DNA from: Myxococcota bacterium
Lineage (GTDB): Bacteria; Myxococcota_A; Polyangia; Polyangiales; Houyiibacteriaceae
Assembly: GCA_028284955.1 (NCBI GenBank)
Contig: JANQQS010000167.1
Coordinates: 1-36,533 of the forward strand
Direction: 5' to 3'
Length of the DNA: 36,533 nucleotides
A model generated the notes under the pieces. It was not told the DNA's origin, did not search any database, and saw nothing but the letters and a program-made list of their open reading frames with translations. Positions 11,772 to 36,356 of this stretch are shown here, piece after piece. The stretch's first letter is position 1, and each line of letters begins with the position of its first letter. A program made the position numbers and the translations under genes.

Positions 11772-11892
11772 CTCAGCAATCTAACGAGAAAGCGCACCGA
11801 TCGCACGAGACCACGCGCCAGAAACAGGTTTCCCATCTTGTCGAGCGCGACGGCATGGGTACCATGAAGGTCGGGGAGGAGAGAGGTCCGCG

Positions 11893-13344: not shown

Positions 13345-13489
13345 CATCTATCGCAGTGATATCCGCTGACACATTGGAGCAATAACGTCTCACCGCGGCA
13401 GTCTTTGTGTCTTTGCAGATGTGTCGGTAGGTTGTTACCCTTGTGCGCCGAAGCTCACATTCTCCCGAGCCAAACCCACAGGAGTCGCG

Positions 13490-15046: not shown

Positions 15047-15049
15047 GAG

Positions 15050-15076
15050 ACTGGTGTCAAACGCTCCCGTCGGCTC
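15050..15076. repeat. Dispersed repeat, copy 2
   Basis: CTGGTGTCAAACGCTCCCGT lies right after the stop of paralogue C and is the inverted counterpart of the copy at 121-147. See that entry. Confidence 0.5.
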
Positions 15077-15175
15077 GCTTGTCTTAGCCGCCACCCGGCT
15101 GCGTTGCTGGGCATGGGTTGCGGCATAAAATTTCCTTTTTTATTGTAATCTTTCAAACACACTGCTTGCGGTATC

Positions 15176-15204
15176 TGCGGAATTTGATAATCTGATCATC
15201 CGCA
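15176..15204. promoter_or_regulatory. Inverted repeat upstream of pectate-lyase-like gene D
   Basis: TGCGGA (15176-15181) and TCCGCA (15199-15204) flank an AT-rich 17-base spacer that includes GATAAT and the palindrome TGATCA. This A/T-rich patch, 20 bases before the start codon in otherwise GC-rich DNA, is a plausible -10 region with an operator. No -35 is convincing. Confidence 0.3.
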
Positions 15205-15223
15205 TTTAACCCAAGGAGTTTCG

Positions 15224-16771: not shown

Positions 16772-16795
16772 ACTCGACCTGACTAGAACGAAAGA

Positions 16796-16835
16796 AAAGA
16801 GCTTCCGGGGGACACTTTGCCCTCGGAAGCTCTTT
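16796..16835 (+). terminator. Intrinsic terminator after pectate-lyase-like gene D
   Basis: Arm AAAGAGCTTCCGGGGG (16796-16811) pairs with CCCTCGGAAGCTCTTT (16820-16835). This gives a 16-bp stem with one G-U pair and an 8-base loop, flanked by A-rich and T-rich (TTTCATTT) tracts. It is likely bidirectional. The rest of the 16836-17053 gap shows no gene. Confidence 0.88.
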
Positions 16836-17053
16836 CATTTGAAAATCCAGCACGAGACGTTTTCAGACAAAGGATGATGACTCAAATACTGGACGGCTGC
16901 AGTACAACCGTTTTCTGATGCCGTCACAAAAAAGCTCGCGCATACAAGCCACCCCAGTGTATCGTTTTGGCTTGGCGATAGTTCCAATTCAGTGATCAGA
17001 TGAATCACGTGACAGGCTAAACCGCACTACGTTCGGACTCGGAAGGGATACCT

Positions 17054-18064
17054 ATGCTGACACGAAATCTTTCTTGCTTATTTGTCGCGGCAACGCTCGT
17101 GGTCGGGGTGGGCTGCGGAGACGACGACACCACCGCCCGTGACAGCGGTACGACTCTTCGTGACAGCGGCACAATCCTTCGCGACAGCGGCACAATCCTT
17201 CGCGACAGCGGCACAAACGATGGTTCCGCGGGCGATTCCAGCGCAGGCGACGCGGCCACCGACGGGGGACCTCCGGAAATGACAATCGTCCTAAGGTTTG
17301 CGCACCTTATCGGCGGCGCGGGCCCGGTCGGAGTCTGCGCCGATACCGGCACGGAGATTACGCTTCTCAACTCGCTCCTCAGCGACGGAGCGCCGCCCGC
17401 TCTCGGCGAAGGAAACGTGACCGACTTTGTGCTCGCGCCGGTCTCGGCGCTGCCTGCTGGGACAACGCTTGAGGTCTATGCGTTTGACGACATCTCCGGG
17501 ACGGCATGTCCGGATGGCACGGGAAGCGAAGAAGCGGTCATTTCAGTCGCGCTCGCAGATTTGAACATCGATCCCGAAAACGCGTACACCATCGCCGCGG
17601 TTGGCGACCTAGACGCAAGCGAAGCGGACGACCAGCCAACGCTCATTGCCGTCGAGGAGGTCTTCGCGCCCATGGACAGCGGAATGGTCTCGATTACGGT
17701 CGTGAACGCAGTGCCCGGGTCGCCTCCAGTGATATTCTGCCAACAGGGTTCGTCGGGCAGCGAAGTCGACCTGATTCCCGATGTCGCAGAAGGGCTTGAA
17801 TTCAAACAAGCCGCGACGACCGAAGTCGACCACGACGACCTCGACGCCATCGGCGGAACCCTCAAACTCTATTTTCTTGGGTTGCCCGTGGACGACGGCG
17901 GACGACGGTGCACCGATTTCGACGGCAGCACCTTCACTGGCGTTCGAACTGGCCACGCATCCTACATGGCAATTCCCAACAACGGCGGAGCGGTGACGCT
18001 GTTCCGGGACCAAGTGAGCGACACCAGTGTAACTGGCGCGCAGAATATTGCGCCCGCGCAATAA
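17054..18064 (+). CDS. DUF4397-like lipoprotein
   Basis: The 336-residue protein has lipobox VGVGC (Cys23) followed by a low-complexity linker built on (R-D-S-G-T-I/T-L) repeats. Residues ~75-190 and ~205-320 look like two beta-sandwich units: LRFAHLIGGAGPVGVCADTG ... LPAGTTLEVYAFD ... AYTIAAVGDLD, then VSITVVNAVPGSPPVIFC. This is the style of the DUF4397 modules common in myxobacterial lipoproteins; I infer the family from pattern only. GGAAGGGA precedes the start. Four Cys in the mature domain suggest disulfides and an extracytoplasmic site. A 3' remnant of a second copy lies at 22120-22230. Confidence 0.6.
   Translation: MLTRNLSCLFVAATLVVGVGCGDDDTTARDSGTTLRDSGTILRDSGTILRDSGTNDGSAGDSSAGDAATDGGPPEMTIVLRFAHLIGGAGPVGVCADTGTEITLLNSLLSDGAPPALGEGNVTDFVLAPVSALPAGTTLEVYAFDDISGTACPDGTGSEEAVISVALADLNIDPENAYTIAAVGDLDASEADDQPTLIAVEEVFAPMDSGMVSITVVNAVPGSPPVIFCQQGSSGSEVDLIPDVAEGLEFKQAATTEVDHDDLDAIGGTLKLYFLGLPVDDGGRRCTDFDGSTFTGVRTGHASYMAIPNNGGAVTLFRDQVSDTSVTGAQNIAPAQ
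17138..17215 (+). repeat. 21-bp in-frame tandem repeat
   Basis: Three full copies and a partial fourth copy of a 21-base unit encode RDSGT(I/T)L in the linker of the DUF4397-like lipoprotein. Copies two and three differ by one base (CGT/CGC), implying recent expansion. Length variation would change the surface tether without breaking the frame. Confidence 0.9.
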
Positions 18065-18094
18065 CGTGTTCCAATCAAACGCCAAATCAAAAAA

Positions 18095-18115
18095 ATTCGT
18101 GAACGGTACGCAAAA
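18095..18115 (+). other. Possible short scar of a pectate-lyase gene tail
   Basis: The bases around GTGAACGGTACGCAA resemble the last codons of gene D (CTGAACGGTACGCAA encoding LNGTQ), here in the 67-base gap before the RCC1 gene. A similar scrap (GAAGAGTTCTCAAACGGTAG) sits at 22271-22290 before the second RCC1 gene. Each match is short, so chance is possible; the repeated position is what makes it notable. Confidence 0.35.
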
Positions 18116-18131
18116 CCAAACAAGGTAACCA

Positions 18132-19913
18132 TTGCCTAAATACGGTCGAAGGCATGTGCATGGTGGATGGGTGGCCGCATTGCTGCTTCTGGCATCTTGC
18201 GGATCCAGCGAACGGTCGCTGACATGGAGCGTCGGTTTTGAAGACGAAAACCTGAGTGCTCGCGCCACCCTCCTCCGCGGTCGGATTTTGGAAGGCGGCT
18301 GCGATTCGGGGGTGATTCTGTATAGCGCCGAGCAAGACCGGCAAGGCGAAGGAATGATGGATGCGCCGCCCAGCCTACCTCCCGGCACATATAGTTTCGT
18401 CGGTGAGGCTCAAGATGGGGAATGTCGCGCGTTCGCCCGTGGCTGTACGGAGGTAGAGCTCCCGAGCGAAGGAATGACCATCGTCGTGACCCTTCGAGAG
18501 AGCGACGAGGTAACCTTGTGTGGCGAGCGCGAGTGCGAGAACGGACGGTGTTCTTCGTGCGAATCGAACGATGATTGCGCAGAATGCCTCATCTGCGACC
18601 CGGCTACCCGCGGCTGTGTTCCCGACGAAGAGGGGAGAATGTGTCAGGACGGAGCCGGGGCATGCCGCAGCGGTAACTGCTGCGCTGGCTGCTGGGATGG
18701 GATGCGGTGCCAAGACGGAGGGGTCATCAACGCGTGCGGCGCCGGCGGAGGGGCATGCCAAGAATGCGCCTGCCCGGCAACGACTTGCGCGGCCGGCGCA
18801 TGCACGATCGCCGAGCCCGTGCAGCAAGCCGATACAGGCGACTTTCATGCATGCGCGGTCACTTCCAACGGCAGCATGTGGTGCTGGGGCAACAACTCGC
18901 GCGGGCAGCTCGGTATCGGAGAAAGAGACAACACCTCGACACAACCGATGCGGGTCGGTTCGCACTCGGATTGGCGTATGGTCTCAACCGGCGAGAACTT
19001 TGGATGCGCGATTCGCAACGACGGCAGTCTGTGGTGCTGGGGCGACAACGGGTTTCAACAGCTCGCCAGCGCGACGCTGTCGCTGAGCGATGTGCCTCTT
19101 CAAATCGAGAGCGACACGGATTGGCAGATGGTTCGCGCGGGACGTTATTCCGCGACCGTCTGTGGCCTTCGAGGAGCTTCTTTGTACTGCTGGGGCCGCG
19201 ACACCCGCGGACAACTCGGCGTCGGCGGCACTGGAGACGAAATGACTCCAGACAGGGAAAAAGTTCGCGGTTCGCCGACGTTGGTGGAGCCAGCCGACGT
19301 ATGGGCCTCGGTTTCTGTGGGCAACACGCACACCTGCGCGATTCGCACAAACAACTCTCTCTGGTGCTGGGGCAACGCGGACAACAGCCGGCTCGGGACA
19401 GGCGACACCATGAACCAGGTCGTGCCCGCTCAGGTAGGCGCCGATCTCGATTGGGCCACCGTTACGGCGGGTCTGGACCATACATGCGCCACGAAGACGG
19501 ACGGTTCGTTGTGGTGCTGGGGACGAAACTCCGTGGGCGCGTTGGGCTTGGGTGACAACGAAACGAGAATGATGCCCACCGAGGTCAGCAGCCTAACCAA
19601 CGTTGTCGAAGTTGCGGCAGGCGACCAAGGCACCTGCGCGATGACAGAAGACAGCAGCGGAATCGCCCTCTACTGCTGGGGAGATAATGATGATGGTCAG
19701 CTTGGTCTGGGGACCGTAGATAGCGCGCTGACACCGTTGCAAGTGGACGAGCGCGTCGACTGGCTGCCGGGAACGCTATCCGTCGGTTTTTCAGTCTCGT
19801 GCGCGGGGCATTCCGACGGCAGCCTCGATTGTTTTGGAGAGAATGACATGGGGCAGCTCGGCCAAGGGAACAACGAGCCAGCAACTACGCCGACCGGCGT
19901 CTGTATTCGCTGA
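18132..19913 (+). CDS. RCC1-propeller lipoprotein, copy 1
   Basis: The 593-residue protein starts at a TTG (18132). The start is supported by AAGGTAACCATTG, conserved before the second copy, and by a good lipoprotein signal (LLASC, Cys23). Residues ~30-125 are an unassigned beta domain. Residues ~130-235 form a Cys-rich collar (CENGRCSSCESNDDCAECLI and onward) of myxobacterial type. Residues ~240-590 are seven RCC1-type blades, each with (L/M)xCWG(N/D/R)...GxLG; the last is LDCFGENDMGQLGQG. It is a surface-displayed propeller, probably for binding proteins or polysaccharides; no enzyme motif is seen. Its DUF4397-like neighbour is 67 bases upstream and likely co-transcribed. Copy 2 (22312-24093) has identical length. 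Confidence 0.85.
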   Translation: MPKYGRRHVHGGWVAALLLLASCGSSERSLTWSVGFEDENLSARATLLRGRILEGGCDSGVILYSAEQDRQGEGMMDAPPSLPPGTYSFVGEAQDGECRAFARGCTEVELPSEGMTIVVTLRESDEVTLCGERECENGRCSSCESNDDCAECLICDPATRGCVPDEEGRMCQDGAGACRSGNCCAGCWDGMRCQDGGVINACGAGGGACQECACPATTCAAGACTIAEPVQQADTGDFHACAVTSNGSMWCWGNNSRGQLGIGERDNTSTQPMRVGSHSDWRMVSTGENFGCAIRNDGSLWCWGDNGFQQLASATLSLSDVPLQIESDTDWQMVRAGRYSATVCGLRGASLYCWGRDTRGQLGVGGTGDEMTPDREKVRGSPTLVEPADVWASVSVGNTHTCAIRTNNSLWCWGNADNSRLGTGDTMNQVVPAQVGADLDWATVTAGLDHTCATKTDGSLWCWGRNSVGALGLGDNETRMMPTEVSSLTNVVEVAAGDQGTCAMTEDSSGIALYCWGDNDDGQLGLGTVDSALTPLQVDERVDWLPGTLSVGFSVSCAGHSDGSLDCFGENDMGQLGQGNNEPATTPTGVCIR

Positions 19914-20035
19914 GCCCGTATGCCACTCCGAAATCGATTGGCCTAGCGTTCACCGTTGGTCTCGCGCTTTGCGATGTTCTGACTTCGTTGGTACTGTGAA
20001 AGCATAGCGGTCGGGGTGTATCGGAGCATGTAAGC

Positions 20036-21607
20036 ATGTATGTAGATGTGCGCAGCAACCGGCTTGTGTTGATTGTGTGCGCGTGGTTCTTCGCTCTGGC
20101 GTGCGACCACAAAACCAGCGGTCTTGGTCCCCAAGACTCGGACGCAGCCCGCGATGTTCCTAGTGACACGTCGCTTCCCGATCAAACGCGGGATGCGGCG
20201 CGCGCCGACGGCTCGACGAACGACAGTGGGAACGCATGCGCGAACGGCCTCATTCCGGCGTTTCCAGGCGCAGAGGGAGGCGGAGCGGCATCGGTCGGAG
20301 GCCGCGGGGGCCGGGTTCTTGAAGTGACTACGCTGGCCGACAGCGGCGCAGGCAGCCTGCGCGCCGCGCTGGATGCCCCAGGACCACGAATCGTTGTGTT
20401 CCGCACTTCAGGCACGATTCGTCTCCAGCGACCGCTCAGCATCGATCGACCGTTCGTCACCGTAGCGGGCCAAACTGCGCCGGGCGGTGGAGTGATGCTC
20501 AGCGGCGAAGACATCGACCTGCAGCCGCTCTCGATCGGCACGCACGATGTCATTCTGCGCTATCTGAAGATTCGTACCGGGCGCGGCGATTCTTATCGAC
20601 CAGGCGCGGGAGACGTGATCGCGATGGGGGAAGGCGGCGATCTCTTCAACGTCATCATCGATCACTGCTCTTTGAGCTGGGGCAATGACGAGAATGTGGC
20701 GCTGTGGTCAGACTCTGGTGTGATTCGCGATGTCACGATCTCAAACAACATCATCTCAGAAGGATTGCACCATGATCGACACAGCACAGGGCTGATCGTC
20801 GGCAGCAACTTAATCTGCGAGGACATTCAGCGCATCAGCGTCCACCACAACTTCTTCGCCCACAACTACAACCGAAACCCGTATCTCAAGGTTGCGTCGC
20901 AAGAGGTGATCAACAACATCGTCTACAACTGGGGCTGGCTGGCCACGCAGATTGCGGGCGGGGTCGAGATCGACATTGTAGGCAACCTGTACAAAGCTGG
21001 AGTCGACGATCAGGGAAGGTCTGAGGTCGCGTGGCGTTCGGATCGACGCAGCTGCAACGAGGGCCCGCCCGGGCCACCGTCGATTCATCTGGCGGGCAAC
21101 GTCGGCCCGCACAACGACGACCCAAGTGTCGATGGATGGGACACCATGCTCGAACGCACGGAAGCGTGGGCGAACCCTCCTCCGTTCACTCGTCCCACCC
21201 GCGTGACGCGCGACTACCAGCGCTCGAATCGAATGTCGTTCGCTGCGTGTCCGGTCACCATCGATCCCGTGCAGGAGCTGGAAGACACGCTGCTTCCGAA
21301 CGTCGGCGCAAGCCGTCGACTCGACGCGCGAGGGGAATGGGTAAGCAATCGGGACGAAGTCGACCAGCGTGTGTTACGCGAATATAGAGATGGCGGAGGC
21401 GCGATCATCCTCACCGAATCGGACGTCGGCGGATTTCCGGATGTCGCGAGCGGCGAGCCCTACACCGACACCGACCGAGACGGTATGGCGGATGAGTGGG
21501 AACGAATCCATGGGTTCAATCCTTCTTCAGCATCTGACGGGCCAACAGATCGAGACGGCGACGGCTACACGAACGCGGAAGAGTTTCTGAACGGCACTCA
21601 ACCCTGA
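20036..21607 (+). CDS. Pectate-lyase-like (PL1-type) beta-helix lipoprotein, paralogue E
   Basis: The 523-residue protein has lipobox ALAC (Cys23) and MY..VR at the start, as in C and D. It has FPGAEGGGAASVGGRGGRVL, PFVTVAGQTAPGGGVMLSGE, IDHCSLSWGNDENVALWSDS, GLHHDRHSTGLIVGSN and HHNFFAHNYNRNPYLKVA, plus C-terminal Ca loops DTDRDGMADEWE and DRDGDGYTNAEEFLNG. It differs from C and D at two sites in the cleft: GLHHDRHS for ALDHDGHS, and HNYNRNP for HNDNRNP. These may shift substrate preference. Its last 81 bases overlap the antisense tail of the deleted lipoprotein ORF. A near-copy of its last ~23 codons plus 3' flank lies at 24165-24252. Confidence 0.88.
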   Translation: MYVDVRSNRLVLIVCAWFFALACDHKTSGLGPQDSDAARDVPSDTSLPDQTRDAARADGSTNDSGNACANGLIPAFPGAEGGGAASVGGRGGRVLEVTTLADSGAGSLRAALDAPGPRIVVFRTSGTIRLQRPLSIDRPFVTVAGQTAPGGGVMLSGEDIDLQPLSIGTHDVILRYLKIRTGRGDSYRPGAGDVIAMGEGGDLFNVIIDHCSLSWGNDENVALWSDSGVIRDVTISNNIISEGLHHDRHSTGLIVGSNLICEDIQRISVHHNFFAHNYNRNPYLKVASQEVINNIVYNWGWLATQIAGGVEIDIVGNLYKAGVDDQGRSEVAWRSDRRSCNEGPPGPPSIHLAGNVGPHNDDPSVDGWDTMLERTEAWANPPPFTRPTRVTRDYQRSNRMSFAACPVTIDPVQELEDTLLPNVGASRRLDARGEWVSNRDEVDQRVLREYRDGGGAIILTESDVGGFPDVASGEPYTDTDRDGMADEWERIHGFNPSSASDGPTDRDGDGYTNAEEFLNGTQP

Positions 21608-26511: not shown

Positions 26512-26546
26512 CATGTGCCAAATTTCAGCGTATTATTTGGCACATG
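26512..26546. promoter_or_regulatory. Perfect 12-bp inverted repeat ending at the second ATPase start codon
   Basis: CATGTGCCAAAT (26512-26523) and ATTTGGCACATG (26535-26546) are perfectly complementary with an 11-base spacer. The ATG of the ATPase is the last three bases of the right arm. No Shine-Dalgarno sequence is visible, so initiation may be leaderless or controlled by this element. The gap 26399-26511 shows nothing else. Confidence 0.75.
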
Positions 26547-27704
26547 TACCCGCGGCTCTCTAAGCTTTCAAAATCGCATAGCTTTTTTCTGTTTGGGGCG
26601 CGGGGGACAGGCAAATCCGGGCTGCTCAAGCAGCTCTTTCGGCCAAACGAGGCTCTGTGGATCGACCTCTTGGATCCTGAGCTCGCGAATGAACTAAGCG
26701 CGTATCCAAATCGACTTGTGGCGCGCCTCGACGCAAAGCATCCACGAGTGCCGTGGATCATCATCGATGAAGTGCAAAAGGTTCCTGCGCTTCTTGAGAT
26801 CGTGCATCAACAACTCAGTCAGAAAAGATTTCTCTTCGCGCTGACGGGATCGAGCGCCCGAAAGCTCAAGCGAGGCGCCGCCAATCTGCTTGCGGGGAGA
26901 GCGTTCATGTTCAGCCTCTTCCCGCTTACCCACAACGAACTGGGCAGCGACTTTGATCTGCACACGAATCTTCGTTTCGGTACGCTGCCCGAAGCGTGCA
27001 ATCTACGCGAGACGATCGACAAACGTCGCTTTCTGAAAGCCTACGCCAACACATACCTCCGAGAAGAGGTGATTGAAGAGCAGATCGTACGCAACCTGCC
27101 TCCTTTTCGTCGCTTTCTGGATATCGCAGGAGCCCACACGACCGAAATCATCAACTACTCCAATATCGCAAGAGACATCGATTCAGATCCCAAAACGGTC
27201 TCGCGATACTTCGATATTTTGGAGGACACGCTTCTCGGCTTTCATCTGCCGAGCTACACAAAATCGATTCGAAAGCAGCAGAGGAAGGCGAAAAAGTTCT
27301 ACTTCTTCGACAATGGGGTCGCACGAACACTGAGTCGACGTGTGGACGACCCGCTCAGACCCAAGACATTCGAATACGGCCAGCTCTTTGAAAACTTCGT
27401 GGTCAACGAAGTACACCGCCTGCTGAGCTACGCTGAACAAGAATTTCGTCTTTCGTTTCTTCGTGTATCGGAAACGCAGGAGATCGATCTGATTGTTGAG
27501 AAAGGAACACGAAAAACCTTTGTGTGCAAAATCAAATCGACCGACCGAGTCGACGCACGGCACGCCCACGCTCTGCGCACCCTCGGAAAAGATTTCGACA
27601 ACCCTGAGCTGAGACTCATTTCGACCGACCCGATCCGCAAACGATTCGATGACGTGATTGCGCTGCCGTGGCAGCAGGCTCTCGATGAAATCGCGAGCGC
27701 ATAG
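26544..27704 (+). CDS. AAA+ ATPase with C-terminal DUF4143 domain, second copy
   Basis: The 386-residue protein has Walker A GARGTGKSGL (~residue 20), Walker B WIIIDEVQKVP, and the signature LTGSSARKLKRGAANLLAGR. The DUF4143 part has FYFFDNGVARTL, QLFENFVVNEVHR and QEIDLIVEKG. In the nuclease-like core the usual I-E-V-K is V-C-K-I-K (FVCKIKSTD), so the conserved Glu is lost, whereas the ATPase at 149-1327 keeps IEVK. The start codon is part of a perfect inverted repeat. The physiological role is unknown for the family. The 3' end faces a truncated third relative at about 27790-27921. Confidence 0.88.
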   Translation: MYPRLSKLSKSHSFFLFGARGTGKSGLLKQLFRPNEALWIDLLDPELANELSAYPNRLVARLDAKHPRVPWIIIDEVQKVPALLEIVHQQLSQKRFLFALTGSSARKLKRGAANLLAGRAFMFSLFPLTHNELGSDFDLHTNLRFGTLPEACNLRETIDKRRFLKAYANTYLREEVIEEQIVRNLPPFRRFLDIAGAHTTEIINYSNIARDIDSDPKTVSRYFDILEDTLLGFHLPSYTKSIRKQQRKAKKFYFFDNGVARTLSRRVDDPLRPKTFEYGQLFENFVVNEVHRLLSYAEQEFRLSFLRVSETQEIDLIVEKGTRKTFVCKIKSTDRVDARHAHALRTLGKDFDNPELRLISTDPIRKRFDDVIALPWQQALDEIASA

Positions 27705-27789
27705 CTCGTCGAGCCTTTGCGCGAATCACGAACAGTCCGGCGCCTGCCGTTCGCCGGACGCGACAAACACTTTGCACTGCGCCGTTTCG

Positions 27790-27921
27790 GTGACGGATCC
27801 CGACTGCGTGTTCGTCGTAGTTGAAGTATTCGTAGGAAGAGACGAGGCTTTTGGCGAGCGTTGTTTTGCCGACCTGACGTGGACCGCTAAGCAAGACCAC
27901 GCGCTCTTCGAGATCCATTCG
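27790..27921 (-). pseudogene. N-terminal fragment of a third DUF4143-type ATPase
   Basis: The minus-strand frame reads MDLEERVVLLSGPRQVGKTT and then LAKSLVSSYEYFNYDEHAV. This is the start, Walker A and first strand of the same ATPase family. Homology stops after FNYDE and the frame then runs antisense into the intact ATPase. It is a truncated copy lying tail to tail with its relative. The rest of 27705-28185 shows no other gene I can support. Confidence 0.75.
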
Positions 27922-28185
27922 AAATCGGCCCTGATTGCGCGCGGTTCATCCGACCAAAGCGGCATAGGCTCCGAAAAAGACAAGACTAAACGGGAATTGT
28001 GTCCGAAATAGTCAGTAGCGTTGTGACCGCCCGTTCAGACAGAGCCCGTGCACGCGGCGATGCGGGACTCGCGCTCGTTCGCACGAAAGGGTTAACGAAA
28101 TTACTCAACAATAGGCTTGCATAGTGAACACGCGCCGGGCGATTCTCCGCCTAGCGGAGGGACGTTCCTCGGAGAGGAAGGCGGC

Positions 28186-28896
28186 GTGGTGCATGCATAC
28201 CAAAAGCCTGCTCGTCGAAGAGGCCCGGTGCGCCGTCGTCAGCAAATGGGCCTCGTCGTCGGCTCAGTCTTGGGAACCGGGATCACGGTCGGCATTTTTT
28301 CGTCCGGCAACGAGCGTCTGCGAGCACGAGGCCCGATGAATCCGGGTCACGAAGATATTCGGTGCGCCCAATGTCATGCCGACGCCGCGGGCAGCACGCG
28401 CCAGCAGATTCAAGCAAACGTTCGCTATCTGCTTGGGCAGCGAGCAACGCCGGTTGATTTTGGTTTGCGAGACGTCGGCAACGCAGAGTGCTTGGGGTGC
28501 CACGAGCGACCCAACGATCGGCATCCCGTATTTCGTTTTAACGAACCACGCTTCGCAGAGGCGCGCAGAAGCATTGCGCCCCATCGCTGCATCTCTTGTC
28601 ACGCCGAGCATAAAGGCCGTCGCGTCAGCGCGGAACCAACGTATTGCCAACATTGCCATGAAGACCTGAAACTATCGTCGGACCCGCTCGACACACCGCA
28701 CCGGGAGCTTGTGAGCCAACAGGAGTGGCAGACGTGCCTGGGATGTCACGATTTTCACGGGAATCATTTGATGCAGGTGCCGCGCGTATTGGATGAGGCG
28801 ATTTCGGTTCCGCGAATCGAAGCGTATTTCAAGGATTCCCATTCTCCGTACTCTCCTCTGAGAAAACATCGTGCGAAGCGCGAGGCGCAACCATGA
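28186..28896 (+). CDS. Membrane-anchored pentaheme cytochrome c
   Basis: Five CxxCH motifs are present in order: CAQCH, CLGCH, CISCH, CQHCH and CLGCH. Further His residues (NDRHP, APHR, HGNH, FHGNH) could be distal ligands. A basic N-terminus (KPARRRGPVRRRQQ) and one hydrophobic helix (MGLVVGSVLGTGITVGIF) anchor it with the hemes in the periplasm. The frame is open from TTG 28117, but AGGAAGG before GTG 28186 makes that the better start (236 residues). It resembles multiheme c3/NapC-like electron carriers only in outline. Its stop overlaps the next start (ATGA), so translation is coupled with the DUF3365 gene. It likely shuttles electrons between the membrane cytochrome and a periplasmic partner. 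Confidence 0.82.
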   Translation: MVHAYQKPARRRGPVRRRQQMGLVVGSVLGTGITVGIFSSGNERLRARGPMNPGHEDIRCAQCHADAAGSTRQQIQANVRYLLGQRATPVDFGLRDVGNAECLGCHERPNDRHPVFRFNEPRFAEARRSIAPHRCISCHAEHKGRRVSAEPTYCQHCHEDLKLSSDPLDTPHRELVSQQEWQTCLGCHDFHGNHLMQVPRVLDEAISVPRIEAYFKDSHSPYSPLRKHRAKREAQP

Positions 28897-29885
28897 GCCG
28901 CCATGAGCAGCCGCGCGGTGATGACAACGTTCGACATCGCCGTCAGCGGCGGGAGGGCGCGGTCTCGGGAACAAGGAAAATCGAGGCTATCCCGCTGGTG
29001 CACAAGAAAGAAGAGCGTGCATCGTCGACACCCTTTGCCGCGGCCCGACGTCGTCGCCAACCCATTCGCTGGACGCCGCTCGTTTTCATGGTTTTGTCGT
29101 TTGCGTCGTTGATCGTGTACCTATTCGTGAGTGCGCCGCCGCCGCTGCCGGAACGTGCCGTCGAAGACAGCGGTGCGATGCTGAGCGTGGCCCAATTGAT
29201 TCAGGTATGCGCCGACGAAAACGCGGCCGTGCGTGCGATGTACACGAAAGAGATCGTGGGGTTTGGCAAACAAGTGGGCCTTTCGTTTTCGGAGCAGTGG
29301 AAGCAAGCCGACGAGAACTCTGGCCCGCTTCCTGCGCTTTTCTTGCGAGAAACCGCGGCGCACCTGGAACGGTCTTCGGTCCCGCTCGGACTCTTTCTTG
29401 GTTCGAGCAATCCAATCAACAAAGCAAACCTTTTTCGCGGGATTCAACGCGAAGCTTTTCGCCGCATCAAAGAGACTCGAGAACCAGAGTTCTTTTATGA
29501 CGAAAGCACCGAGCGCCATACAGCCATGTTTCCCGATGTCGCGGTGGCCAAGCCCTGCGTGAGCTGCCACAACGAGCACGAAGACAGCACCAAACGAGAC
29601 TGGAAACTCGGTGATGTGATGGGCGCAACTACGTGGTCGTATCCAAAAGAGTCCGTGCCGCTGCGTGAAGCGATGCGTGTGGTCGCTGCGTTGCGGCAAA
29701 GCTATCTCGAGGCGTATGCGCAGTATGTTCGCAAAGCCCAGGAGTTTGAGAACGCTCCTGCGGTCGGCGAACGTTGGCCACGGGATGGCTACTACTTGCC
29801 CCGCGTAGACCGGTTTGCGGCGAGAGCCGCAAAGCGCAGCTCGGCACAAACCCTGAACAGTTTGATCTCTGCTGCTTTGGAGTGA
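28893..29885 (+). CDS. Membrane-anchored DUF3365 (Tll0287-like) heme-domain protein
   Basis: The 330-residue protein has a basic cytoplasmic N-terminus (~60 residues) and one TM helix (TPLVFMVLSFASLIVYLFVS). A periplasmic domain of the DUF3365/Tll0287-like family follows: AMYTKEIVGFGKQVGLSFSE, NPINKANLFRGIQREAFRRI, EPEFFYDESTERHTAMFPDV, then the heme motif CVSCH (C222, C225, H226) in KPCVSCHNEHEDSTKRDWKL-GDVMGA. Tll0287-type domains are PAS-like folds binding a c-type heme, used as redox or gas sensors. Here there is no attached kinase or cyclase, so it is either an electron carrier or a stand-alone sensor. It overlaps the upstream pentaheme gene by four bases and is two bases from the next gene. 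Confidence 0.82.
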   Translation: MSRHEQPRGDDNVRHRRQRREGAVSGTRKIEAIPLVHKKEERASSTPFAAARRRRQPIRWTPLVFMVLSFASLIVYLFVSAPPPLPERAVEDSGAMLSVAQLIQVCADENAAVRAMYTKEIVGFGKQVGLSFSEQWKQADENSGPLPALFLRETAAHLERSSVPLGLFLGSSNPINKANLFRGIQREAFRRIKETREPEFFYDESTERHTAMFPDVAVAKPCVSCHNEHEDSTKRDWKLGDVMGATTWSYPKESVPLREAMRVVAALRQSYLEAYAQYVRKAQEFENAPAVGERWPRDGYYLPRVDRFAARAAKRSSAQTLNSLISAALE

Positions 29886-29887
29886 CG

Positions 29888-30361
29888 GTGAAGTTCGACT
29901 GGCTGTTTCTTGTCGGAATCGCACTACTCGTTGGATTGACTTTGCTCCTGACCTGGGGCCCGGAATGGGCCTGGCTCGCTGAGCAGCAGACCAACCCAAC
30001 GTTCAAGTTCTTGAGCGGTGGCGCGCTAGCCGCGTATCTGCTGCATCAATGGTGGCTTGCGGTGGCTCGCGGACTTCGATGGAACCGAATGGCCAAACGC
30101 GCCTACGAGCCTCACCGATACTTCGGGGTCCTGGCGCCGATTGTTTTCTATGTGCATTCGATCCGGTGGGGGTACGGCTTTTTGATCTTGCTAAGCACCA
30201 CATACGTTTCCAACGTGGCCATTGGAATGATCGGTCCGGAGCGATTTCATCGAAGCGCCCCTTGGTACCGCGCCGGTTGGACCGTGCTGCATGTCGCGTT
30301 CGCAGCGGTGGTGACGGCGCTCGCCGCGTCTCATGCTTGGTTCGCGTTCTACTATGAGTAG
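29888..30361 (+). CDS. Four-helix, His-rich membrane protein (cytochrome-b-like)
   Basis: The 157-residue protein starts at GTG 29888, two bases after the upstream stop; the longer open frame is not supported. It has four or so hydrophobic segments: WLFLVGIALLVGLTLLLTW, GGALAAYLLHQWWLAVA, GVLAPIVFYVHSIRWGYGFLILL, and WTVLHVAFAAVVTALAASHAWFAF. His residues within or at the ends of helices (LLHQWW, HRYFG, YVHS, VLHVAF, ASHAWF) are spaced like bis-His b-heme ligands of cytochrome-b561/ferric-reductase-type proteins. It is probably the quinone-facing membrane module feeding or draining the two c-type proteins of this operon. The family is not identified. Confidence 0.7.
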   Translation: MKFDWLFLVGIALLVGLTLLLTWGPEWAWLAEQQTNPTFKFLSGGALAAYLLHQWWLAVARGLRWNRMAKRAYEPHRYFGVLAPIVFYVHSIRWGYGFLILLSTTYVSNVAIGMIGPERFHRSAPWYRAGWTVLHVAFAAVVTALAASHAWFAFYYE

Positions 30362-30631
30362 CGCGTCGATGTACCCAAACTGGGATTACCCTCTAAGGAT
30401 GATCATTTCAAGAAAGTAAACGGACGGTAACTTCCCGGTAGATCGCAGCGTCAAGCATGGTAACGTTCGATGAATCCGTTTCGTGGTCAGCGGGCTGCTG
30501 ACGACGATGAAGTGACGGTTGCCCTAGGTTGTTCCGGAGTTGGGGTCCGTGGACTGCCGAGCGCGATCGTTTGAGGTGCTGTTCTGGACTCACAATCGCA
30601 CGCAGTTCCAGCCGATATCAAGCCGGAAACG
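30362..30631. other. Intergenic region upstream of the kinase gene
   Basis: No gene or RNA is recognised in these 270 bases. A small hairpin GTCAGC-GGGCT-GCTGAC is at 30486-30502. The kinase promoter must lie here or be shared with the redox operon; I see no convincing -35/-10 pair. Confidence 0.4.
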
Positions 30632-32029
30632 ATGTTTGGTCGGTACTGGATCCATCGACGGATTGGCCGCGGAGGGATGGCTGAAGCCTGGCTCGCGACC
30701 GCGATGGGTCCGCAGGGTTTTCAGAAAAAAGTCGTTTTGAAAGTCATCGCGCCACGTCGCGCGCAAGATAACCAGTTTGTTCGAATGTTTGTACGGGAAG
30801 CGTCGCTCGCGGCGCAGTTGAACCACCCAAACGTTGTGCAAGTATTCGATTTTGGCAAACGTGACGGCACCTACTTCATCGCGATGGAATACGTGCCAGG
30901 ATTCAACCTGCGCCAGATTGCGAGTCGCGCAGCGGAGCAGCGGGTGGCTTTGCCGCTCGGTTTTGTTGCAGGCGCAGTGGTGGCTTGTTGTCGCGGGCTA
31001 TCTCATGCACACGGAACACGAGGCAAAGACGACGCCCACCGCATCATTCACCGAGATGTGACATCTGAGAACATCATCGTCTCGGATGACGGGATCACGA
31101 AACTGATTGACTTCGGAATCGCCGCAACGGCTGGGGAGATGGGCGCCGAGGCCGGGGTGGTGAAGGGGAAGCCGGCATACCTCGCCCCCGAACTGGTGCG
31201 CGGGCGCCCGATCGATCCCCGGTGCGATATTTATTCGCTGGGCGTGGTGCTTTACGAGTTGCTCACGGGACAGCGGCCTTTTGGCGCACAAACCGGGCCC
31301 GCAGTACTCCGTCGCGTAGTGAACGAGGGCTTGCCGTCGATCGACGACCGAGCGCCGCATCTTCCCTTGTCACTCCGAGAGGTGGTTCGCCGAGCCACCT
31401 CGATTGAGCCGACTCGTCGTCCCGAGAGCGCATCCGCGTTTTTGAACGATTTGAAACAAGCATGTGTTGCGGCGGAAAGCCCTCCCCACGGTCCTGAGCA
31501 AATGGCCGATTTCGTGTCTGCTCTCTTCGAGGAACCGTGTCGGTTGCCCTCGTCGAGGATGAGCACGGATACGACCTCCGCGCCGGCGAGTTCGGACGAC
31601 GATGAAGTCGATGAAGTCGATATCGACATCGAGTTCGATCTGGAAGCCCTGCATGACGAACTAGGTCTTCGCATTCGACCCGAGGTTCGATCAGGTCCTG
31701 CGTCGTGGAAGCCTCATATGAGCGACATCTTTGCCGTCGGTCGTCCCGCCCGGCGTTCAAGCGAGCGAACCAGTTCGAGGGGATACGATTCTGGAGCGAG
31801 CAAGCCGAGCGAAGTCAAGCCAGGAGCGAGACCGCCTTCTGACCCATCCAATCTGTTTGATCGGCAGAGCGCAGCGAGAAAACGGCCAAGCGGTTGGCCG
31901 GCGTGGGTGACATCAAGCGACCACGCGTTCGGAGCTTTGCGCATGCGCAAAACGGCGCCAGCGGGAAAACCACCTTTTGTGACTGTACGAACTATGTCCG
32001 ACGATTCCGAGTCTGAGAACAATACATAG
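30632..32029 (+). CDS. Soluble eukaryotic-like Ser/Thr protein kinase
   Basis: In the 465-residue protein the kinase domain spans ~4-275. It shows the Gly-rich loop IGRGGMAEAW, catalytic Lys37 (VLKVI), Glu56 (VREASL), HRD140-142 in IIHRDVTSENIIV, DFG160-162 (DFGIA), APE as YLAPELVRG, and DIYSLGVVLYELLTG. All catalytic residues are present. The C-terminal ~190 residues are low complexity with an acidic stretch (DDDEVDEVDIDIEFD) and no TM helix, sensor or repeat domain. That is unlike PASTA-type kinases, so input probably comes from partners. GGAA a few bases before ATG 30632 is a weak ribosome site. It is 15 bases from the roadblock gene, suggesting one operon of kinase, roadblock, OmpA-like, roadblock-like and V4R. 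Confidence 0.92.
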   Translation: MFGRYWIHRRIGRGGMAEAWLATAMGPQGFQKKVVLKVIAPRRAQDNQFVRMFVREASLAAQLNHPNVVQVFDFGKRDGTYFIAMEYVPGFNLRQIASRAAEQRVALPLGFVAGAVVACCRGLSHAHGTRGKDDAHRIIHRDVTSENIIVSDDGITKLIDFGIAATAGEMGAEAGVVKGKPAYLAPELVRGRPIDPRCDIYSLGVVLYELLTGQRPFGAQTGPAVLRRVVNEGLPSIDDRAPHLPLSLREVVRRATSIEPTRRPESASAFLNDLKQACVAAESPPHGPEQMADFVSALFEEPCRLPSSRMSTDTTSAPASSDDDEVDEVDIDIEFDLEALHDELGLRIRPEVRSGPASWKPHMSDIFAVGRPARRSSERTSSRGYDSGASKPSEVKPGARPPSDPSNLFDRQSAARKRPSGWPAWVTSSDHAFGALRMRKTAPAGKPPFVTVRTMSDDSESENNT

Positions 32030-32044
32030 ATAGCGGAGGTATTT

Positions 32045-32440
32045 ATGGCACAGCAGCAAAACGTCGTACCGATGGCGACTCGTTCGGAACGCGTCAACGA
32101 GGTACTCCGCGCATTGCGAGTGACGACGCCGGACATCATCGGTTCGGTCCTCGTCAATATGGACGGCTTCATCGTGGCGTCCCTTCTTCCGAGCGAAGTC
32201 GACGAAGAGCTGATCGGCGGAATGGCGGCCGCCATTCTGGGCGTCGGCGAACGAATTTCGAGTGACTTGATGGCATCTGAAATGGAGCAGGTGTACGTGC
32301 GCTCCCCCAAGGGATACATCGTGGTCAACGCGGTCACGTCCGAAACTGCGCTCGTTTTGTTGGTCACGCGAGAAGCGAAGTTGGGGCTCATTTTTCTCGA
32401 ATTGCGACGCGCGGTCGGAGAGCTGGCGCACGTACTCTGA
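32045..32440 (+). CDS. Roadblock/LC7-domain protein
   Basis: The 131-residue protein is a single roadblock/LC7 fold: VNEVLRALRVTTPDIIGSVL, VNMDGFIVASLLPSEVDEEL, IGGMAAAILGVGERISSDLM, then the strands VYVRSPKGYIVVNAV and ALVLLVTREAKLGLIFLEL. In bacteria such proteins (MglB-like) usually regulate small Ras-like GTPases or cluster with them; no GTPase gene is in this window. GGAGG before ATG 32045 is a strong ribosome site. Its stop and the next ATG overlap by one base (TGATG). Confidence 0.9.
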   Translation: MAQQQNVVPMATRSERVNEVLRALRVTTPDIIGSVLVNMDGFIVASLLPSEVDEELIGGMAAAILGVGERISSDLMASEMEQVYVRSPKGYIVVNAVTSETALVLLVTREAKLGLIFLELRRAVGELAHVL

Positions 32441-33126
32441 TGCTTGCGTTGTCGCGCAGTCACCATTCGACGTGGGCTGTTGTCGTCCTCCTGATCGGAC
32501 TCGCAGACCTTGCATACCTCGACTTCGTCGTCGGGCCAGAGGTATTCAGGCCGCGTGCAGCAGCCGCGGAATTGACTGCACGTGTTCGTCCAACTTCGAT
32601 CACTATCTCGAGTCTAAACGCCGCCCCGAGCTCAAACACTGTTCCGAGTTCGAACACCGTCTCGAGTTCGAACAGCACGGCTTCGAATTCGGATCGCACA
32701 GTTTCGAATTCAGACAACGTTGCGAACGTTGATCCTGAGCCACCCCCATCGCCGAGTCACCCTCCGCCCACCGCAGCCACAGCGCTGTTCGCGCAAGACA
32801 GCGCAAAGCTAAACATCGCATCCGTTCGCGAAGTCGAGCGCATCGGACACGCAATCACATCAGAAAAAACCTTTCCTGAGAAACTGCATGAGGTTCTTGT
32901 CGTGGGCCACGCAGACAATCGAGGTACCCCAAGATACAACGCGGCACTAGGCCGCAAGAGGGCAGACAGCACGGCGCGCCAGTTGCGGCGCCTCGGCATT
33001 CCTCGAAGCAAGCTTCGAATCGAAAGCCGCGGGGAAACCGAGCCAATCGATTCGCGTTCTGTGCCACAGGCTTGGGCGCGAAATCGCCGCGTAGAGATTA
33101 CCGTGCACTGGGAGGAGCAACCATGA
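32440..33126 (+). CDS. Inner-membrane-anchored OmpA-like peptidoglycan-binding protein
   Basis: The 228-residue protein has one N-terminal TM helix (WAVVVLLIGLADLAYLDFVV), a Ser/Asn/Thr repeat linker (~57-95), a Pro-rich stretch, and a C-terminal OmpA domain. The latter has the signature VVGHADNRGTPRYNAALGRK, RADSTARQLRRLGI, IESRGETEPID and NRRVEITVH. The Asp and Arg that hold diaminopimelate (GHADNRG, RNRRVE) are present. The topology is MotB-like, tethering an inner-membrane complex to the cell wall. It overlaps both neighbours (TGATG upstream, ATGA downstream), so tight coupling with the two roadblock-type genes is expected. Confidence 0.87.
   Translation: MLALSRSHHSTWAVVVLLIGLADLAYLDFVVGPEVFRPRAAAAELTARVRPTSITISSLNAAPSSNTVPSSNTVSSSNSTASNSDRTVSNSDNVANVDPEPPPSPSHPPPTAATALFAQDSAKLNIASVREVERIGHAITSEKTFPEKLHEVLVVGHADNRGTPRYNAALGRKRADSTARQLRRLGIPRSKLRIESRGETEPIDSRSVPQAWARNRRVEITVHWEEQP
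32626..32720 (+). repeat. Ser/Asn-coding repeat
   Basis: Degenerate ~18-base units around GAGTTCGAACAC encode SSN(T/S)V-type repeats in the OmpA-like protein. This is a flexible linker between the membrane helix and the wall-binding domain. Confidence 0.7.
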
Positions 33127-34016
33127 CCTCACTTTTTGGAAACCCGCTTCACGGTCTATGGATTATGTCGACGCTCGGCGCGGGATTGTTTTTCTGCGCG
33201 GGCTACTTGCTGTCTCGCGGTCGACGTACCACCGTGGCGCGCCTAGATCCGGTGCCTTCGATGCCGACGATCCCTCCCGAACCGGCGCGCGACCACCGCG
33301 CCGAGGCATCCTTGCGGCACTCGCTCATCCAAACGGAGGATCGGTGCCGGCGTCTCACCGAAGAACTCAACGTGATGCGCGGCTCGCTGAACCAGGCGCA
33401 CGCTTCGCTGAATCGGGCCCAAGGTTCAACAGCGGAGCTTGCAGAACTGAAAAAGAAAAACGGGGAGCTCCAAGCCCAAATCAAGTACGCTCGATCGATC
33501 GAAAAAGAGCTTCGCGCACAGCTTCGCGTAGCCCATCGATCTTCGTCCGCATCGACCAGACCGCGTCCACGGTCTAGTGCGCCACCGGTCAAGACGCCGC
33601 TTCCGCCGCCGGTAACCCAATCTGCGCGCGGTGTTGAGTACGCGCTCAAACGAGTCCTCGAGAACCTGCGCCGCGATGTTCGGCTGCGCGAGGTTGTGGT
33701 TGCGGACCGGATCGGTTTTCCCGTGGCGAGCCTTGGCTCGGAAGCCGATGCGATGGCTGCTTGTTGCGCCTTTCTTCGAGATATGGCGCGTCGCGCATGC
33801 GAAATCGTACCGGTGGGTATGCCGTCTCGAGTAACCGTTGAAGACGTGAATGGCTCCACGCTGACACTTTGCACATTCGAACCAGCAGAACCCTCTCTTC
33901 TTGTTCTCGGGGGCGACGAAAGACTTTCTCGAGCCCACCTTGAACAAGCTTTGCAGAATTCCATCGACTTACTCGAGCGAGACATCGAGCAAAATCGACC
34001 GACGGCGACCCACTGA
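33123..34016 (+). CDS. Membrane-anchored coiled-coil protein with C-terminal roadblock/LC7-like domain
   Basis: The 297-residue protein starts at ATG 33123, overlapping the previous stop (ATGA). The TM helix is LWIMSTLGAGLFFCAGYLLS. A coiled coil at ~65-150 (EELNVMRGSLNQAHASLNRA, ELKKKNGELQAQIKYARSIE) and a Pro-rich hinge follow. The last ~105 residues read REVVVADRIGFPVASLGSEA, CCAFLRDMARRACEI, VTVEDVNGSTLTLCTF and SLLVLGGDERLS. That is a roadblock/LC7 pattern with the D-x-x-G-x-P-V-A-S turn. The domain faces the cytoplasm if the coiled coil does. It could recruit the soluble roadblock protein or the kinase to the membrane. The fold call is from pattern only. Confidence 0.75.
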   Translation: MTSLFGNPLHGLWIMSTLGAGLFFCAGYLLSRGRRTTVARLDPVPSMPTIPPEPARDHRAEASLRHSLIQTEDRCRRLTEELNVMRGSLNQAHASLNRAQGSTAELAELKKKNGELQAQIKYARSIEKELRAQLRVAHRSSSASTRPRPRSSAPPVKTPLPPPVTQSARGVEYALKRVLENLRRDVRLREVVVADRIGFPVASLGSEADAMAACCAFLRDMARRACEIVPVGMPSRVTVEDVNGSTLTLCTFEPAEPSLLVLGGDERLSRAHLEQALQNSIDLLERDIEQNRPTATH

Positions 34017-34029
34017 GCAAGGAGACAAG

Positions 34030-34548
34030 ATGACTGAACGACAACAGATGCCTCGCACCGTCGGCGCCAAAGAGGTTGCTACGGTATCCCCCCGAATCGA
34101 TCGCGTCGATGCAGCCAACGCGATGAGCATTGTGCGGCCGACCTTAGGAGACAATGCCGGCGTCGCGCTCTATCGTTTGCTTCGGCTTGTCGCGCTGGAA
34201 GACATCATTGGGCGAGGCGCCGCAGGCACGGCATACATCGCCGGAAAGAAGCTCGGGAAGGGGCTTGGTCTTCCGGATCTAGACGCCTTTCTCGAGCTCT
34301 GTGACACCCTCAAAATCGGCATCATCAAAGTGCCCGTATTGACCAGCTCAAAAGCGCATGTCGCAGTGCATGAATGCATCACGTGCAGCGGCATGAAACC
34401 GATGGGTCGCACTCTATGTCACTTTGAAGGCGGCTTGATCGCGGGAGTCGTCGAGTCGGTGATGAAGAAAAAGACGCGCGCTCAGGAGAAGACCTGCATC
34501 GGGGGACTTGGCCACGATGCGTGCGGTTTTGACATCCTCATCGGCTAA
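34030..34548 (+). CDS. V4R (4-vinyl-reductase-type) domain protein
   Basis: The 172-residue protein starts at ATG 34030 after GGAGACAAG. The V4R domain (Bet3/TRAPP-related fold) is clear: YRLLRLVALEDIIGRGAAGT, AYIAGKKLGKGLGL, VAVHECITCSGM, LCHFEGGLIAGVVE, CIGGLGHDACGF. The Cys/His cluster (HECITC, LCH, C...C) is the usual putative metal or ligand site. V4R domains bind small hydrophobic ligands or act as sensor modules. Together with roadblock proteins in one operon it resembles a minimal TRAPP-like set (Bet3-like plus roadblock). It is 13 bases after the roadblock-like gene. Confidence 0.87.
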   Translation: MTERQQMPRTVGAKEVATVSPRIDRVDAANAMSIVRPTLGDNAGVALYRLLRLVALEDIIGRGAAGTAYIAGKKLGKGLGLPDLDAFLELCDTLKIGIIKVPVLTSSKAHVAVHECITCSGMKPMGRTLCHFEGGLIAGVVESVMKKKTRAQEKTCIGGLGHDACGFDILIG

Positions 34549-34658
34549 GTTGGTCCCAGACGCGCGAATCGCCCCCCCTGCCGAGCTCTGCCATTGCCGA
34601 ATGGCGCCGCAGGTCCCATAAACGAGGACGCCGGGGACCAAATCGGAGCGTCAACACG

Positions 34659-36356
34659 ATGAGCAAGCGAACGTCGATCGTCGAAAACATTATTCGTAAA
34701 GATCCGTACGAGCGTTCGGATGAAATGCAGCCAATTTTGAGCGCGGAGGCGATTGCGCAGGTTCAGCGCTTCGGCACGGTCGAGCAGGTGGAGCAAGGGG
34801 CTGTGCTGTTCGATATTGGTGACCAGCTAACGCGCTTCATTGTGGTCCTCTCCGGGGCTCTGGCCATCGAAGTCGATGGATGCACGGAAACCACGACCAT
34901 CGTGGAACATCGGCGCGGTGCGTTCACCGGTGAGATCGATATGTTCTCCAATCGCCGAGCCGTGGTGCGAGGTCGCTGCGTGGAACCGGGGGAGATGATT
35001 TTCGTTGAGCGCGACGCCTTTCGTCGATTGCTCGCGACGCATGCCGATCTCTCGGAACTCATCACCCGAGCTTTCATTCTGCGCCGGAGCGGGCTCATTT
35101 TTCATGAGCGCGGCGACCTTGTGATCGTGGGTACGGAAACGGATGGCTCCTTTGTTGCGCTGCGCGCATTTCTCGCGCGCAATGGCCATCCTCACGGCGT
35201 GATCGATCCCCAAACCGACGAGAAGCGCACCGCAGAAGTCTTCTCGCACTATGAGATAACCAGCCGCGACCTTCCCGTGGTCATCTACCGGAACAAGACT
35301 GTGCTCAAGCAGCCTACGGTGCGGCAGCTGGCCGACTTGGTCGGCTTGTCACAGCCGTCTGGCAACAAGACTCACTACGACGTCGCGGTAGTGGGCGTCG
35401 GCCCGGCCGGTCTCGCCGCAGCAGTGAACGCCGGAGCCGAGGGCTTGTCGGTTATCGCGATCGAAGGCGGCGCACCTGGGGGCCAAGCAGGCACCAGCTC
35501 CAAAATCGAAAACTATCCCGGGTTTCCGACGGGCATTTCTGGGCAAGCACTCGGCGCGCGCATGTTGCTGCAAGCCCAAAAATTCGGCGCAGAGATCGTG
35601 ACGCCCCGCCAAGTCAAAGCCATCGAATGCGACGCCCGCCCCTACGTGCTGGAGCTGGAGGATGGCGAGACGCTCAGTGCGTCCTCGATCGTCGTCGCGA
35701 GCGGAGCGAAGTGGCGCCGCCTCCATCTCGATAAAGAAGAGCTGTTTGAAAACGCGGGGGTACACTACGGCGCGACGGCAGTGGAGGCGATGCTTTGCGA
35801 GGGCGAGGAGGTCGCGGTGGTGGGCGGGGGCAACTCTGCCGGCCAAGCCGCGATTTATCTATCCGGTCGCGCAAGCCATGTTCATATTCTGATTCGAGGT
35901 GAAAGTCTGGCCTCGAGCATGTCCGACTACCTGATTCAGCGCATCGAAGCGTCGCCCAACATCACCCTCCATCGCTTCACCGAAGTGGTGAAACTGAGCG
36001 GGGAAGAACGTCTCGAAGGCATGACCTGGAAGCATCGACGCACGAGCGAAACCGAGGAGCGACCGGTTCGCCACCTCTTCGTGATGATCGGCGCGGTGCC
36101 CAACACCGAATGGCTCGGTGATTGCCTTCTGCTTGATGAAAAAGGATTCATCAAAACCGGAAGCGATTTGCCCACAGACTACCTCGTCACCGCGGACTGG
36201 ACCGCCCAGCGCATGCCCTACATCGGAGAAACCTCGAGACCCGGCATCTTCGCAGTCGGCGATGTGCGCTCAGGAAGCGTCAAACGCGTCGCGTCCGCCG
36301 TCGGCGAAGGCGCCATCTCCGCACAGTTTCTTTTCCGTGTCACGCGCGAAGTCTAA
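34659..36356 (+). CDS. cNMP-binding / thioredoxin-reductase-like flavoprotein
   Basis: The 565-residue protein has three parts. Residues ~28-145 are a cyclic-nucleotide-binding beta-roll (FDIGDQLTRFIVVLSGALAI, GAFTGEIDMFSNR). Residues ~152-232 are a thioredoxin/glutaredoxin-like fold without CxxC (VIVGTETDGSFVALRAFLAR). Residues ~240-565 are thioredoxin-reductase-like: FAD site GVGPAGLAAA, GGQAGTSSKIENYPGFP, NAD(P)H site VVGGGNSAGQAA, end GIFAVGDVRSGSVKRVASA. At the reductase CxxC position it reads GVHYGATAVEAMLC, so the redox disulfide is missing. This is a recognised architecture whose function is unclear. It sits 110 bases after the V4R gene; operon membership is possible. Confidence 0.88.
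   Translation: MSKRTSIVENIIRKDPYERSDEMQPILSAEAIAQVQRFGTVEQVEQGAVLFDIGDQLTRFIVVLSGALAIEVDGCTETTTIVEHRRGAFTGEIDMFSNRRAVVRGRCVEPGEMIFVERDAFRRLLATHADLSELITRAFILRRSGLIFHERGDLVIVGTETDGSFVALRAFLARNGHPHGVIDPQTDEKRTAEVFSHYEITSRDLPVVIYRNKTVLKQPTVRQLADLVGLSQPSGNKTHYDVAVVGVGPAGLAAAVNAGAEGLSVIAIEGGAPGGQAGTSSKIENYPGFPTGISGQALGARMLLQAQKFGAEIVTPRQVKAIECDARPYVLELEDGETLSASSIVVASGAKWRRLHLDKEELFENAGVHYGATAVEAMLCEGEEVAVVGGGNSAGQAAIYLSGRASHVHILIRGESLASSMSDYLIQRIEASPNITLHRFTEVVKLSGEERLEGMTWKHRRTSETEERPVRHLFVMIGAVPNTEWLGDCLLLDEKGFIKTGSDLPTDYLVTADWTAQRMPYIGETSRPGIFAVGDVRSGSVKRVASAVGEGAISAQFLFRVTREV

Follow-up and report, generated by a model that had tools for sequence, protein, structure and literature searches.

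Three coupled genes from a Myxococcota bacterium encode a pentaheme c-type cytochrome (P1), a Tll0287-like heme c protein (P2) and a small five-helix membrane protein (P3), which may together form one transmembrane electron-transfer module, most likely serving nitrogen-oxide chemistry; we give this reading about an even chance of being correct. The genes lie within a 36,533-nucleotide stretch of DNA (contig JANQQS010000167.1, assembly GCA_028284955.1), referred to here as the window. The three genes are conserved as a unit together with their heme-ligand pattern, and both reductase fusions and N-oxide gene neighborhoods are found in several lineages. In the proposed mechanism, P3 would be a small cytochrome b whose two HX13H helices bind a pair of b hemes between them, spanning the inner membrane, and it would deliver electrons to the pentaheme cytochrome and the heme c protein on the periplasmic side. 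The cytoplasmic donor would be an NAD(P)H:FAD:[2Fe–2S] reductase where one is fused or adjacent, and in the window either a reductase encoded elsewhere (a candidate on contig C202, see below) or the quinone pool. We infer this heme content of P3 and the direction of electron flow, as well as the substrate and the order in which P1 and P2 act; the module would probably remove nitric oxide or feed electrons into an N-oxide step in the periplasm.

The P1 and P2 genes share four bases (ATGA at 28893), and two bases separate P2 from P3 (Table 1), exactly as given, with the same coordinates, in an earlier sequence-only reading of this DNA. The G+C content of the three genes (0.58–0.59) is close to that of the window (0.59), and no promoter-like site was found by a simple scan of positions 27900–30700. 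The same reading had described two membrane-anchored c-heme proteins and a His-rich membrane protein, and both descriptions hold: P1 contains five CXXCH motifs and P2 one, while P3 contains none and has six histidines, four of them invariant among its relatives. Its count of four helices for P3 is superseded by the predicted model, which has five.

Table 1. Features of the three-gene locus (positions in the window)
Feature	Position	Strand	Details
P1, membrane-anchored periplasmic pentaheme c-type cytochrome	28186..28896	+	236 aa, GTG start
Five heme c sites of P1	28363..28749	+	CXXCH at residues 60, 102, 135, 154, 184
P2, Tll0287-like (sCache_heme, DUF3365) mono-heme c protein, one N-terminal membrane helix	28893..29885	+	330 aa
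Heme c site of P2, CVSCH, residues 222-226	29556..29570	+	C222, C225, H226 and H229 kept in 80/81 rows
P3, five-helix membrane protein with two HX13H motifs, predicted di-heme b	29888..30361	+	157 aa, GTG start
First HX13H of P3 (H76, H90; helix 3)	30113..30157	+	
Second HX13H of P3 (H135, H149; helix 5)	30290..30334	+	

Several other features of the window were recorded. Genes for a Ser/Thr kinase, a roadblock/LC7 protein (66–70% identical) and a V4R protein adjoin the triad (30632–36356) and are shared with L016 and L131 (a Kofleriaceae locus and a genome of the same class); they may represent a conserved signaling cluster into which the triad is set. A cyclic-nucleotide-binding domain is fused to a pyridine nucleotide-disulfide reductase at 34659–36356. 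Elsewhere in the window are several secreted paralogues in a row with an FPGA/GGRGG-type motif (10314–21607; no catalytic Pfam match in the one scanned) and an AAA_14/DUF4143 ATPase, after which a short frame on the minus strand resembles the start of a second one (26544–27918).

A scan of 84,980 species genomes for P1 returned 229 relatives, of which the best 80 were analyzed. Among these best 80 of 229, P2 is present in 80/80 loci and P3 in 77/80, so the co-occurrence search proposed in the sequence-only reading returned more than chance association. In the three loci without P3, the contig ends inside P2 (L071), the P2 frame is shortened (L028) or P3 is absent (L011); tblastn did not find P3 in L132 (genome G277). 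The distance matrices of P1, P2 and P3 correlate with r = 0.94–0.96 across 75 sets (74 loci and the window) and r = 0.83–0.87 across the 26 non-Bacteroidota sets, with no permutation reaching the observed values (2000 and 5000 permutations). Three extracted frames containing stop codons (P1 of L006 and L020, P2 of L074) were counted in the residue-conservation rows and excluded from the alignments and distance correlations; P2 of L006 and L020 and P3 of L006, L020 and L074 were retained in the alignments. The stops in L020 and L074 may stem from the choice of frame start or end. P1 with two in-frame stops in a gammaproteobacterial MAG (L006:4001-4657) and the shortened P2 in a Methylococcaceae MAG (L028:6657-7226) are possible cases of decay or assembly error.

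The hosts of the triad comprise Gammaproteobacteria, Methylococcaceae, Bacteroidota, Methylomirabilota, Nitrospirota, Chloroflexota, Gemmatimonadota, Campylobacterota, Myxococcota and Rhodobacterales. Within these groups P1 is sparse, occurring in 4/377 genomes of the window's phylum, 7/95 of Methylomirabilota, 6/201 of the order Methylococcales and 22/249 of Flavobacteriaceae, and a single-sequence search for P3 in relatives from the family and order of the window organism gave 0/56. This patchy distribution suggests horizontal transfer of the triad as a unit.

P1 matches PF14537 (31.3 bits, cut-off 25), and its predicted model has a single N-terminal helix (residues 14–38). The five CXXCH motifs and six further histidines (residues 55, 113, 142, 172, 191 and 194) are kept in 81/81 rows, two of which contain stops. 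The six additional conserved histidines are enough for bis-His ligation of all the hemes, so P1 reads as a wire, and since it looks bis-His throughout, it has no obvious catalytic site. Assignment to the NrfB, NrfH or OmcA/MtrC types was rejected: the NrfB-type pentaheme profile TIGR03146 (NCBIfam) scored 18.2 bits against a cut-off of 166.6, the window protein fell far below the NCBIfam cut-offs wherever it had a match, and the NrfH profile matched other members of the P1 family and not the window P1. A PDB sequence search gave weak multiheme matches only (for example, an eight-heme nitrite reductase, E = 0.0075), and a Foldseek search with the P1 model gave no match.

P2 is placed among the Tll0287-like proteins by its match to PF11845 (40.6 bits, above the cut-off of 24.1); no relative was found by sequence search of the PDB. 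In addition to the heme c residues (Table 1), M212 is kept in 81/81 rows, and CHNxH and M212 are invariant in 47 aligned sequences. The P2 family has no conserved Cys outside CXXCH, the C106 of the window protein being found in 1/81 rows. The heme segment C-x-x-C-H-N-x-H and the conserved DW and GDV that follow it align with a Leisingera chemoreceptor and a Chelatococcus cyclase, while the conserved C-terminal region of P2 is absent from both of these sensors. According to PMC12889525, nearly half of Tll0287 domains stand alone, which makes the earlier statement that they are usually fused to other domains too strong; that P2 itself stands alone beside apparent electron carriers was rightly noted. 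In the same text, a signaling-type Tll0287 domain without an axial Cys binds NO tightly and a stand-alone Tll0287 protein with an axial Cys does not. Set against that split, P2 appears unusual: it shares the domain, the CXXCH and the stand-alone state with these proteins, but the characterized stand-alone protein has an axial Cys, whereas the CHNxH motif of P2 is that of the two aligned signaling proteins. Its heme motif matches that of the signaling domains, a class with a measured NO binder (PMC12889525), which favors the N-oxide reading. An unlikely extension is that the triad forms a new NO-consuming complex, in which electrons from NAD(P)H or quinol would pass through a di-heme b P3 and the P1 wire to P2 as a catalytic, NO-binding heme c Cache protein reducing NO in the periplasm; if so, a sensor fold would have been turned into, or derived from, an enzyme.

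The four histidines that form the two HX13H motifs of P3 (H76, H90, H135 and H149) are present in 78/78 sequences, and the predicted model (pLDDT 95) consists of five long helices, the third bearing H76/H90 and the fifth H135/H149. The sequence-only reading had named loss of these histidines in orthologues, or membership of a known non-heme family, as grounds for abandoning it and had called for structure prediction to place the His pairs; the histidines are conserved, the model places both pairs, and no match to a non-heme family was found. PMC5566968 gives a pair of HX13H motifs, one on TM3 and one on TM5, as the signature of the ferric reductase domain and cytochrome b.

P3 thus characterized looks like a small cytochrome b, and by its ligand pattern it would work like the ferric reductase/NOX family, with Pfam membership falling below the score cut-off. 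The window P3 has no Pfam or NCBIfam match. PF01794 weakly matches 29/55 aligned P3 members (best E = 1.9e-5) and not the window P3, and in the two members viewed singly the profile is matched over part of its length only. Comparison of the P3 profile with 26 PF01794 proteins by hhalign (26/30 loci used, the other four having been set aside beforehand) gave a probability of 0.4%, from a sample that may not represent the NOX branch. We take those 26 proteins to be mostly short and MsrQ-like. No relative was found for P3 by PDB sequence search, and Foldseek returned nothing at E = 0.001. A fold comparison (VIA) gave SpNOX (8qta; Z = 8.0, rmsd 3.1, 112 residues) and superoxide oxidase (Z = 9.7), on a par with helical bundles of no known relation, and formate dehydrogenase gamma was also among the matches; as unrelated bundles are mixed in with them, family membership was not rested on fold. 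P3 resembles the ferric reductase/NADPH oxidase family (PF01794; SpNOX) in its two HX13H motifs on separate helices and its NAD(P)H reductase partner, but it is smaller and below the Pfam cut-off, the reductase is N-terminal or separate, and its electrons would go to c hemes.

That partner is a FAD/NAD/[2Fe–2S] reductase, which adjoins P3 in 50/50 Bacteroidota loci (342 aa in Maribacter) and is either fused to P3 or encoded immediately before it in 5/30 non-Bacteroidota loci (L007, L015, L055, L072 and L080); reductase–P3 fusions also occur in two Methylococcales loci (L141 and L142). The fusions scanned in L007, L015 and L080 carry BFD, FAD and NAD domains on the same frame as P3, and the fusion frame in L055 and L072 was deduced from tblastn. 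The fusion lineages are Chloroflexota, Gemmatimonadota, Campylobacterota and some Gammaproteobacteria. As the reductase is fused or adjacent to P3, NAD(P)H can donate electrons that pass via P3 to the periplasmic c hemes. In the two Methylococcales loci, an HTH regulator with a MetOD1-like domain directly precedes the fusion (L141:11786-12415, L142:7145-7786), and in L051 and L074 a large cytochrome c assembly protein is encoded within the operon between the reductase and P1.

In the window, no reductase gene adjoins the triad. One FAD_binding_6 protein was found in the window genome (419 aa, contig C202), with the same three domains (FAD, NAD and 2Fe–2S) and 31% identity to the Maribacter reductase, and is only a candidate for the electron donor in the window organism. 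The expectation that every triad genome encodes such a reductase failed, as 4/25 lack a FAD_binding_6 protein (these genomes may be incomplete). The sequence-only reading had suggested a quinone-to-periplasm electron path. Quinone as the sole donor is not supported, given the reductases beside or fused to P3; for the window's own arrangement, with no adjacent reductase, a quinol donor is possible.

The N-oxide role draws on gene context and is most strongly indicated for Flavobacteriaceae. A globin gene is present in 47/50 Bacteroidota loci, and 42/50 have a gene for nitrate uptake or reduction. Full-length NasA (60/249 Flavobacteriaceae) occurs in 22/22 genomes with P1 versus 38/227 without it (Fisher 8e-16, ignoring phylogeny), and the P1–NasA pairs are on one contig in 22/22 cases and within 71 kb in 20/22. 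These loci resemble the narK-bjgb-flp-nasC locus of Bradyrhizobium, for which the accessible part of PMC4724949 describes a globin and a flavoprotein with nitrate assimilation as a proven NO-detoxification pairing: globin, flavin reductase, NarK, nitrate ABC transporter and nitrate reductase genes occur together, but a membrane cytochrome b, a pentaheme cytochrome or a Tll0287 protein is not named in that part of the text.

NorB/Nod-like genes lie beside the triad in 6/7 Methylomirabilota loci (the exception being L138), with a small c cytochrome between them and the triad in the loci inspected. Nod is, we presume, the appropriate name for these NorB-like genes. A conserved 95-aa protein is also encoded between them and the triad (L135:6650-6934, L134:10502-10786, L137:9997-10281), with no Pfam match in the one scanned. 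The NorB family is present in 7/7 Methylomirabilota triad genomes and over the cut-off in 7/88 others, a weak association within one lineage that ignores phylogeny; as a general rule, NorB co-occurrence failed outside Methylomirabilota, since in a search of 31 triad genomes, among them the window's, only three were over the cut-off. Elsewhere, H-NOX is encoded directly downstream of the triad and followed by a histidine kinase in 2/2 Rhodobacterales loci, a formate/nitrite transporter gene adjoins P3 on the other strand in L006 with a heme-copper oxidase gene beyond it, and a NOR-like gene lies ~4.5 kb away in L028. The N-oxide genes searched for are absent from 24/30 non-Bacteroidota loci; none lies near the triad in the window, and the window genome has no match to NorB-type qNOR (PF22085). 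For the window organism, an N-oxide role would be an extrapolation.

These absences bear on the possibility, which we consider doubtful, that the triad is a quinol-to-periplasm carrier chain with an unspecified acceptor and no special link to N-oxides, the NAD(P)H reductase having been added in some lineages only. Most of the Gammaproteobacteria, Methylococcaceae, Methylomirabilota and Nitrospirota loci, like the window, consist of P1-P2-P3 alone, and both the genomes without a FAD_binding_6 protein and the window's lack of N-oxide neighbors fit such a chain; against it, a reductase is fused to P3 in seven loci and adjacent to it in 50, N-oxide neighborhoods recur across unrelated lineages, and no quinone site was identified. 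It is quite improbable that P2 is instead a sensor of NO or redox state, gating the chain or reporting on it and being neither carrier nor enzyme. Its heme region does resemble chemoreceptor and cyclase Tll0287 domains, and signaling genes do lie beside the triad in two loci (H-NOX with a histidine kinase) and near it in the window, L016 and L131 (kinase, roadblock and V4R genes), but P2 lacks an output domain, every locus encodes it with a conserved C-terminal region of its own that is missing from the two aligned sensors, and the kinase, roadblock and V4R genes are common to only three loci of the window's phylum.

We attach a still lower probability to a ferric-reductase-like role, in which the triad would supply reducing power in the periplasm for iron, for heme or for the maturation of cytochrome c. 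The HX13H pattern of P3 is that of ferric reductases, and hemA lies beside the triad on a Flammeovirga plasmid, but no iron-uptake genes were recognized among the recurring neighbor clusters (most read by eye); the cytochrome c assembly protein within the operon of L051 and L074 would fit this role, yet it occurs in only 2/80 loci and may simply mature these cytochromes.

No description of the P1-P2-P3 set was found in the open-licence literature searched, and the earlier judgment that it is not a described complex was mostly right. Similar sets have, however, been noted: as far as the available text goes, He et al. (2017; PMC5566968) describe, in Fe(II)-oxidizing bacteria, multiheme cytochromes of the periplasm whose genes precede those of 5-TM proteins carrying a pair of HX13H motifs, in many cases together with a further redox protein, and assign no function to them. 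The genes reported here likewise combine a multiheme c gene with a 5-TM two-HX13H protein, P2 lying between the two. The resemblance extends to the placing of HX13H on helices 3 and 5 and, for the most part, to the lack of a porin; a Tll0287 partner, an NAD(P)H reductase fusion or an N-oxide context is not named in that text, and as the comparison is by description, the two may be the same set. The pairing of a multiheme cytochrome with an HX13H membrane protein was therefore known before; the Tll0287 partner, the reductase fusions and the N-oxide links are added here.

Annotation of the triad genes goes no further than 'hypothetical protein', 'DUF3365' and 'cytochrome c3 family'; in Flammeovirga, the RefSeq gene names read globin, DUF3365, hypothetical, ferredoxin-NADP reductase and cytochrome c3. 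If the electron-transfer module proposed here is correct, these genes would constitute a widespread, horizontally spread NAD(P)H-to-periplasm electron route, linked with the use of nitrate in marine Flavobacteriaceae and with NO chemistry in Methylomirabilis, and stand-alone Tll0287 domains, for which only a 'redox-related' role has been proposed, would gain named partners and a testable pathway.
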